In this document: positions 39,395 to 40,212 of the stretch, piece by piece
Layout of the letters: every line of letters starts with the position of its first letter
Numbering within the stretch: the stretch's first letter is position 1
From: Pseudooceanicola marinus
GTDB lineage: Bacteria; Pseudomonadota; Alphaproteobacteria; Rhodobacterales; Rhodobacteraceae
Assembly: GCF_002786295.1 (NCBI RefSeq)
Contig: NZ_PGTC01000015.1
Span: forward strand, 188,501 to 252,500
Direction: 5' to 3'
DNA: 64,000 bases
Notes under the pieces: model-generated
Told to the model about the DNA's origin: nothing
Database searches by the model: none
The model's input: the letters and a program-made list of their open reading frames with translations, nothing else
Program-made: the position numbers and the translations under genes

Positions 39395-39670
39395 TCTGCC
39401 GGACCCGGGCTAGGCCCGGGCAAACCCTCCGGGGGAGGGTTTGGGCAAATCACGGGCGGAGCCCTTCCGGACCTCGGGGCCTGGGGCCCCGAGGCAAACG
39501 CTCCGGGGGAGCGTTTGGGAAACTCACGGGCGGAGCCCCCAACGACCCGCGCTGCGCGCGGCAAACCTTCCGGGGGGAAGGTTTGGGGGTTTCACGGGCG
39601 GAGCCCCGCCGGACCCGGGCGTAGCCCCAAGTCTGTAGCGATCACGACCTCGGGGCTTTTGGCTCCGAGG
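39395..39670. repeat. Tandem hairpin array after the Liv importer
   Basis: Gene-free stretch built of at least three units of about 70 bases. Each has a first GC hairpin, then a hairpin AAAC-stem-GTTT, then TCACGGGCGGAGCCC. The second hairpins are at 39422-39442 (AAACCCTCC / GGAGGGTTT), 39496-39516 (AAACGCTCC / GGAGCGTTT) and 39563-39584 (AAACCTTCC / GGAAGGTTT). The stems differ but stay paired. First hairpins include CCCGGGC-N3-GCCCGGG (39404-39420) and CCTCGGGGC-N5-GCCCCGAGG (39472-39494). A further CCTCGG / CCGAGG pair is at 39648-39670. Confidence 0.85.
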
Positions 39671-39717: not shown

Positions 39718-40041
39718 CTACTGCTCCCCGCCCGACAGCTTCATCAGCACGATCCCTGACAGGATCAGCAGGGCGGCCAGCAGGCGCAGGGGCGTCACCG
39801 CCTCGCCCATCCACAGAACGCCCACGGCGAAGGCGCCGACCGCGCCGATGCCGGTCCAGACCGTGTAGGCCGTGCCCAGGGGCAGCGACCGCATGGCCAG
39901 CGCCAGCAGGCTGAAGCTGGCGATCATGGTGACAAGGGTGATGATCGAGGGCAGCAGCAGGGTGAAACCCGCGGACTTCTTCATGAAGCTGGCCCAGACG
40001 ATTTCCAGGCAACCGGCGAGGGTGAGATAGAGCCAGGGCAT
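39718..40041 (-). CDS. gdx: SMR-family guanidinium exporter (Gdx/SugE type)
   Basis: A four-helix small multidrug-resistance protein of 107 residues that works as a dual-topology dimer. MPWLYLTLAGCLEIVWASFMK contains the conserved membrane Glu. SLPLGTAYTVWTGIGAVGAF matches SugE (Gdx) rather than EmrE/QacE, the subgroup that exports guanidinium. The start at 40041 has GGAGG 7 bases upstream. Two ACGR-loop hairpins directly upstream form a guanidine-II riboswitch pattern, which supports the function strongly. Confidence 0.93.
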   Translation of the reverse strand: MPWLYLTLAGCLEIVWASFMKKSAGFTLLLPSIITLVTMIASFSLLALAMRSLPLGTAYTVWTGIGAVGAFAVGVLWMGEAVTPLRLLAALLILSGIVLMKLSGGEQ

Positions 40042-40063
40042 GACCTGACCTCCGTTCCAGGGG

Positions 40064-40109
40064 CCGGGCCGTCCCGGGATGAGAACCAGGCGCCGGGTCG
40101 TCCCGACGC
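40064..40109 (-). promoter_or_regulatory. Guanidine-II (mini-ykkC) riboswitch
   Basis: In the gdx direction the leader holds hairpin P1 (40109 to 40090), GCGTCGGG-ACGA-CCCGGCGC with an 8-base stem and one G-U pair. A 12-base linker follows, then hairpin P2 (40077 to 40064), CCGGG-ACGG-CCCGG. Two GC stems capped by ACGR loops and joined by a short linker are the defining features of mini-ykkC RNAs. P2 ends about 10 bases before the GGAGG ribosome-binding site of gdx, so control is probably at translation start. Confidence 0.87.
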
Positions 40110-40180
40110 GCCCCGGGCCTAGCAACCGGGGCGGAGCCGGTCAATCGCCGCCCCATGGCGCCCGGCCATGTCCGTCATGC

Positions 40181-40212
40181 AAAAGGGGCGCCCCGCGGGA
40201 CGCCCCCTTGTC
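40181..40212 (-). terminator. Terminator of the 546-residue acyl-CoA ligase gene
   Basis: On the minus strand GGGGGCGTCCC is followed by GCGGGGCGCCCC and TTTTGC; the outer arms GGGGCG / CGCCCC pair. It lies about 20 bases after the ligase stop and just upstream of the gdx leader, insulating it. Confidence 0.75.

Follow-up and report, generated by a model that had tools for sequence, protein, structure and literature searches.

A probable Guanidine-II riboswitch before a Gdx-type exporter gene of Pseudooceanicola marinus, and related leaders before PACE pump genes

The exporter locus and its surroundings

The window, by which we mean the whole 64,000-nucleotide stretch of Pseudooceanicola marinus DNA analysed here, carries on its minus strand an exporter gene of the SMR family, preceded by a leader with two hairpins. 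The features of this locus, in order of position, are the following:

39718-40041, minus strand: Gdx-type SMR exporter, 107 aa (PF00893, 97.4 bits; best solved relatives of Gdx-Clo type; E13, W16, S42, Y59, W62)
40049-40053, minus strand: Shine-Dalgarno GGAGG of the exporter (sequence; predicted change of access on folding)
40064-40077, minus strand: P2 hairpin, ACGG loop at 40072-40069 (sequence; pair covariation over 38 SMR leaders)
40090-40109, minus strand: P1 hairpin, ACGA loop at 40101-40098 (sequence; pair covariation over 38 SMR leaders)
40064-40109, minus strand: Guanidine-II (mini-ykkC) aptamer, P1, linker and P2 (RF01068, 42.1 bits; model R1, 46.5 bits over 40064-40109, the window leader being one of the 38 training rows of that model)
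40139-40144, minus strand: TTGACC, -35-like and tentative, 35 bases before the aptamer (placement of TTGA across leaders)
40182-40209, minus strand: terminator-like hairpin with a T run (TTTT), after the upstream CoA-ligase-type gene (12-pair stem, -23.2 kcal/mol over a stretch of 40 bases)

Exporter and leader sit between an AMP-binding gene of the CoA-ligase type and a convergent ABC-transporter ATPase gene. Among eight neighbouring proteins scanned, Pfam finds an acyl-CoA dehydrogenase, two AMP-binding proteins of the CoA-ligase type, a zinc-type dehydrogenase, an IclR regulator, one ABC ATPase and two permeases of the branched-chain amino-acid type, a wider mixture than the acyl-CoA genes throughout that the first-pass annotation had described. 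At the DNA level, the region is 93-95% identical to that of a relative genome (G018). Compared over flanks of about 1.5 kb, the neighbourhood is kept at one of eight other gdx loci (L004, in the nearest genome); at the remaining seven, the window match is restricted to gdx and, in some, its leader. With surroundings so rarely kept and neighbours so mixed, the fatty-acid gene block was rejected as a functional clue, and where gdx stands within it is apparently without functional meaning. A 72-base GC-rich repeat that contains a palindrome stands three times in tandem between the exporter and the ABC gene (39402-39615); four more partial matches to it lie in other parts of the genome.

The solved structures nearest to the exporter are 8vxu and 6wk5 (97-100 bits), the latter of which we take to be Gdx-Clo, as against 50 bits for EmrE. 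All five of the residues E13, W16, S42, Y59 and W62 are present in the protein. PMC7695847 describes W16 as conserved in Gdx exporters and replaced by Gly or Ala in the Qac subtype, and discusses the roles of E13, S42, Y59 and W62. Residues and nearest solved structures alike place the protein in the Gdx subtype of the SMR family, in agreement with the first-pass assignment, and support its reading as a Gdx-type guanidinium exporter. Its score against the NCBIfam SugE equivalog (NF008512) is 109.4, under the cut-off of 126, and the protein is therefore not filed as that equivalog. The missed cut-off, together with the degree of tolerance to quaternary ammonium compounds that Gdx proteins are reported to give (PMC12186494), could be taken to favor a multidrug pump of the Qac/EmrE-like kind with a borrowed guanidine switch, a reading that we hold to be very improbable, since W16 and the nearest solved relatives both speak for Gdx, and the genome's own EmrE-like second SMR gene has neither a Trp at position 16 nor a hairpin pair. 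Across 22 Pseudooceanicola genomes, the hairpin-pair leader precedes all six SMR genes with W16 and none of the 20 without it (26 genes classed from 29 loci, the other three giving no SMR frame and being uncounted).

Identity and conservation of the aptamer

Read on the minus strand, the leader begins with P1 (GCGTCGGG-ACGA-CCCGGCGC, 40109-40090), continues through a 12-base linker and closes with P2 (CCGGG-ACGG-CCCGG, 40077-40064). Ten bases separate P2 from the GGAGG at 40053-40049, and seven more lead to the ATG at 40041, so that the aptamer ends 22 bases before the start of the SMR gene. This layout bears out the first-pass description of two GC hairpins with ACGA and ACGG loops, a 12-base linker and a P2 about 10 bases before the ribosome-binding site. 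The Rfam mini-ykkC covariance model, proposed in that annotation as a check, matches 40109-40065 (RF01068) with 42.1 bits against a gathering score of 32, with an E-value of 5.2e-5 over the 64 kb, or 4.9e-7 in a 601-base search space. In a scan with every Rfam family, this was the sole match above gathering in the 64-kb window. The proposed mini-ykkC/Guanidine-II identity is thereby upheld, with a score 10 bits above gathering. Membership in Guanidine-II (RF01068) is indicated by this covariance score (42.1 against 32 bits), by the two ACGR-loop hairpins with their short linker, and by compensatory changes in the helices of 38 SMR leaders.

Both ACGR loops are present in all 23 Rfam matches found in the genome and 59 relatives; the loss of these loops in relatives' leaders, named beforehand as evidence against the identification, was not seen. 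Across 38 of the 44 distinct SMR aptamers (L012, L056, L058, L074, L084 and L089 having been left out before alignment), 68 cells are changed on both sides of a pair, compared with 23.8 in shuffles. For four of five covariation measures, none of 500 shuffles reaches as high a value; for the fifth, which counts how many pairs have both sides changed, 177 of the 500 do. Leaders of PACE genes (see below) show 36 cells changed on both sides versus 9.8 in shuffles, over 65 matches that include two probably due to chance, in an alignment fitted to the model. L155, whose aptamer slice was empty, does not enter the leader alignments.

That the window hairpins form a chance GC-rich fold or a protein-binding site with no riboswitch is barely credible and was rejected: the 78% G+C of the aptamer and the ordinary overall folding energy of the leader would suit it, but the Rfam score, the covariation over 38 leaders and the rarity of the two-hairpin pattern in resampled sequence (1 of 17,200 first-order Markov resamples of PACE leaders) all stand against it. 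The aptamer, its conservation and covariation, and the subtype of the pump are documented here directly, and 40064-40109 (minus strand) is very probably a Guanidine-II (mini-ykkC) riboswitch before a Gdx-type exporter gene, predicted to act as an ON switch of translation.

Transcription unit and switching

The hairpin and TTTT run between the ligase gene and the leader suggest that the leader is probably its own transcription unit; the terminator consensus scan, which needs at least five T, does not call this hairpin. Furthermore, 45 of 88 leaders have a TTGA 24-48 bases ahead of the aptamer, mostly at 33-36 bases, compared with 195 of 4400 shuffles, a placement from which the RNA would start near the aptamer. 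A scan for sigma-70 promoters gave no full match.

In the published model, guanidinium brings about loop kissing and thereby a free Shine-Dalgarno sequence, with the linker as putative anti-Shine-Dalgarno (PMC9094411). In Escherichia coli, a deletion over P2 accompanies constitutive gdx expression (PMC13064478). By analogy with this literature, from which both guanidinium as the ligand and the kissing of the loops are inferred, the window leader would work as follows. Without guanidine, the aptamer hairpins would pair through their loop and 3' strand with the Shine-Dalgarno region; guanidinium, when present, would bind both ACGR loops, the loops would kiss, the Shine-Dalgarno sequence would be freed and the pump would be made. 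The regulated product would be a Gdx-type guanidinium/H+ antiporter, under an ON switch of translation.

Folding predictions, in which P1 and P2 were held and their loops blocked, are consistent with such a gate in the window leader, where the unpaired fraction of GGAGGU rises from 0.17 unconstrained to 0.55. For 45 PACE leaders, mean predicted Shine-Dalgarno access rises from 0.23 to 0.41, versus 0.40 to 0.42 with shuffled tails, with a gain of more than 0.1 in 30 leaders and a fall in three. For 43 SMR leaders, the corresponding means are 0.36 and 0.40, versus 0.37 and 0.38 with shuffled tails; access goes up in 12 of them and down in nine, so that this model of the gate does not extend to SMR leaders in general. 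For the 106-base window leader, the minimum-free-energy structure is of ordinary stability (z -0.76), and P2 is absent from it.

The loop and 3' strands of P1 and P2 pair with the Shine-Dalgarno region better than shuffled sequence does. This comparison used a single shuffle for each leader, and base composition would lead one to expect part of the difference. A role of the linker as anti-Shine-Dalgarno is not supported in these leaders, its pairing being no better than shuffle. When each leader's own P2/Shine-Dalgarno pairing is set against swapped partners, the PACE leaders beat all 2000 permutations, whereas 131 of 2000 are as good for the SMR leaders; in this test, however, the rows are related, and a purine-rich Shine-Dalgarno sequence pairs with C-rich 3' strands anyway, so that we place no weight on it. 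Competition between the hairpins and the Shine-Dalgarno sequence is the likeliest form of the gate, and we consider it reasonably probable.

Genes behind the riboswitch

With Rfam, a Guanidine-II match was found in 20 of 60 genomes (the genome under study included) and in 16 of the 22 of the genus. At the family level, 65 of 394 genomes have a match, above the cut-off in 52. Both searches pooled, with seven shared places counted once and near-identical loci of related genomes left unmerged, give 87 places, behind which stand 49 PACE genes, 31 SMR genes, two 2-oxoglutarate dioxygenase genes and five others. PACE is the commonest gene behind the riboswitch in this family-level survey. Three of the five other genes resemble carboxyguanidine-deiminase subunits (DUF1989; Pfam was run on one of them). 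A class-wide sample has a match in 39 of 385 genomes, and the genes behind 29 new loci with flanks, out of 40 new places, are SMR in 16 cases, DUF1989-like in eight, PACE in three and other in two.

Two of the 87 matches appear to be false: L071 sits within an open frame of 558 codons, and L087 lacks the second ACGR loop and stands before a gene start that is presumably EF-Tu-like. Additionally, two loci of the same genus (L303, 2787-3984, in G001; L304, 2853-4049, in G012) carry a Guanidine-II-like element that scores 30.8 and 29.6 bits, under gathering, before a 2-oxoglutarate/Fe(II) dioxygenase gene, after which come ABC importer genes including that of a solute-binding protein; the homologues of this dioxygenase in the genome that holds the window are only about 31% identical. 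Relatives in the dioxygenase superfamily make guanidine or demethylate methylguanidine, according to PMC11018352 and PMC12508155. At L160 (1501-1980), a match of 39.8 bits lies 25 bases before the gene of an ACT-domain protein (PF10000), neither a transporter nor a known guanidine enzyme.

PACE genes in the same genome

The window element is part of a larger guanidine regulon, with two further copies before PACE pump genes in the same genome. One of these (L002) scores exactly the Rfam gathering score of 32.0 bits and lies 19 bases before the gene of a 142-aa protein, which is a PACE protein by PF05232 (152.9 bits) and by NCBIfam PACE_transport (133.7 against a cut-off of 80). The AceI equivalog scores 90.7 for L002 and 89.4 for L006, under its cut-off of 180. 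The other copy (L147), before a PACE gene assigned by PF05232 only, is absent from the Rfam genome-search list; in it, P1 is complete and P2 retains three pairs beside the loop. The Rfam scores of many PACE leaders fall close to gathering or below it, and one of the genome's two is unlisted, which suggests why such leaders can be overlooked.

Model R1 gives six matches in the genome at E-values up to 1. The two PACE elements score 25.6 and 20.8 bits, no better than three further matches at 25.3, 23.1 and 20.9, and with such low scores these elements rest on comparison with other leaders. The three further matches (L307-L309) were set aside as chance, having no ACGR hairpin pair and lying inside long open frames. 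A Guanidine-I riboswitch was sought in the genome and not found. Both PACE genes (L002, 13-474, and L147) share one 66.5 kb contig (G000:C7), on which one of them lies near a ParA-like ATPase (PF13614, 22.9 bits, under the cut-off of 27); judging by this ATPase, the contig may be a plasmid.

Leaders of PACE genes at large

Starting from the genes instead of the riboswitch, we gathered PACE genes by PF05232 alone, from 22 genomes of the genus (17 genes) and 149 genomes of the family, 38 of which gave a match. Both hairpins precede 13 of the 17 genus genes, one hairpin precedes one and none precedes three; in the rest of the family, the counts are 21, three and 13 of 37. Together, with the duplicate second copy in G139 uncounted, 34 of 54 genes have both hairpins, four have one and 16 have none. 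Genes without hairpins are often weaker PF05232 matches, and none were seen at seven of the eight family genes read last.

A second set, queried with an alignment of leader-bearing PACE proteins and hence leaning to close relatives, comprises the best 80 of 539 genome loci and six of 182 plasmid records; of these 86 leaders, 55 have both hairpins, seven have one and 24 have none. Moreover, the covariance model built from the 38 SMR leaders only finds the element in 59 of the 86 close relatives (E below 0.01), in the same orientation as the gene and either at the start of the protein match or a short way upstream of it. Leader-positive genes come from Pseudooceanicola, Roseivivax, Sulfitobacter, Rhizobium, Devosia, Microvirga, Thalassospira and five loci of the gammaproteobacterial Marinobacter; leader-negative ones come from 13 other Marinobacter rows, Halomonas/Vreelandella, Sinorhizobium meliloti and Paracoccus. 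The PACE gene of S. meliloti pSymA was inspected for leader hairpins, and none were found. Two leaders from Thioclava look like the element except that the loops are broken, which we read as decay, and three PACE genes without a hairpin pair adjoin LysR genes. Identical aptamers and equal PACE scores recur in Pseudooceanicola pacificus, Allosediminivita and Heliomarina (L019, L080, L082, and L229-L231), suggesting recent transfer of a riboswitch-PACE module between genera.

A midpoint-rooted tree was built from 127 PACE proteins of 110-230 aa, identical ones entering once, of which 83 bear the leader, eight a weak form and 36 none. All 83 leader-bearing rows fall inside one branch of 118 (support 98/85), outside which lie rows from Acinetobacter, Burkholderia, Pantoea, Vibrio and Plesiomonas and four from Pseudooceanicola and its family. 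The leader label requires 17 changes on the tree, compared with 36.7 in shuffles (55 of 123 inner branches being open), so that gains and losses of the leader both occur. Position 118 (L002 numbering) is Tyr in 99% of leader-bearing rows and Phe or Ile in eight distant rows, and Tyr118 is a possible mark of specificity of leader-bearing PACE proteins.

Do riboswitch-linked PACE pumps export guanidinium?

The shared leader is most likely explained, as an inference, by guanidinium or a closely related guanidino cation being what the PACE pumps behind it export. We lean, by a modest measure, towards a large PACE clade as a second, structurally distinct class of guanidinium exporter under Guanidine-II control, in Rhodobacterales, Hyphomicrobiales, Thalassospira and some Marinobacter. 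The full hairpin pair is absent in 20 of the 54 genes sampled by Pfam and in 31 of the 86 close relatives, which counts against the link.

A less probable alternative, though one to be taken seriously, is that guanidine serves the riboswitch-linked pumps, PACE above all, only as an inducer, and that what they export are other guanidino or cationic compounds. The PACE proteins that have been characterised transport chlorhexidine, which is a bisbiguanide, and further cationic biocides out of the cell (PMC9045395, PMC5840245), and a Guanidine-II element also responds to methylguanidine (PMC12508155). In the same direction, the riboswitch precedes gdx in six and PACE in 12 of the 22 genus genomes, with both in two where chance gives about three; on this count, gdx and PACE as mutually exclusive substitutes are not supported. 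Against this alternative, the leader also stands before Gdx-type guanidinium exporters and DUF1989 carboxyguanidine-deiminase-like genes, the latter at eight of 29 class-level loci and three of 87 family-level places, so that the other riboswitch targets handle guanidine itself.

Were guanidinium export by PACE true, AceI-like members would be putting a guanidino-cation site to secondary use when they export chlorhexidine, parallel to multidrug export as it is thought of for SMR proteins. Taken alone, the window element is one more gdx leader of known type. The regulon gives a hypothesis on the physiological substrate of PACE, a family studied through disinfectants, and one that is directly testable, with leader, ligand and gene all named.

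Comparison with known systems

Guanidine-II riboswitches before gdx are well known (PMC12186494), and 65% of mini-ykkC regulon genes are described as multidrug transporters, their families unnamed, in the available part of PMC3766115. A link between Guanidine-II and PACE goes unmentioned in the accessible portions of PMC12186494, PMC7736828, PMC9788692, PMC12508155, PMC11018352, PMC7266159, PMC3766115, PMC2864571, PMC9574504, PMC9045395 and PMC5840245. The published list of genes adjoining mini-ykkC (Additional file 8 of Weinberg 2010) may already hold PACE under an older name.

The window leader shares with those before gdx/sugE of E. coli and other Proteobacteria the two GC hairpins with ACGR loops, the short linker, the closeness of P2 to the Shine-Dalgarno sequence and the Gdx-type SMR gene; it differs in its lineage-specific surroundings and in that the same genome uses this riboswitch class for two PACE genes. 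Likewise, the leader-bearing PACE proteins agree with AceI of Acinetobacter and PA2880 of Pseudomonas in PF05232, in PACE_transport scores over the cut-off, and in Glu15, His80, Glu85 and Asp130, which are found in leader-bearing rows and eight distant rows, but the riboswitch leader belongs to the Guanidine-II-linked clade, and the AceI equivalog cut-off is missed. A parallel for the pairing itself is that of Guanidine-IV riboswitches, which precede MATE and PnuC transporters proposed as candidate guanidinium exporters (PMC7736828). Both cases join a guanidine riboswitch class to a non-SMR transporter family, although the riboswitch class and the transporter families are different ones.
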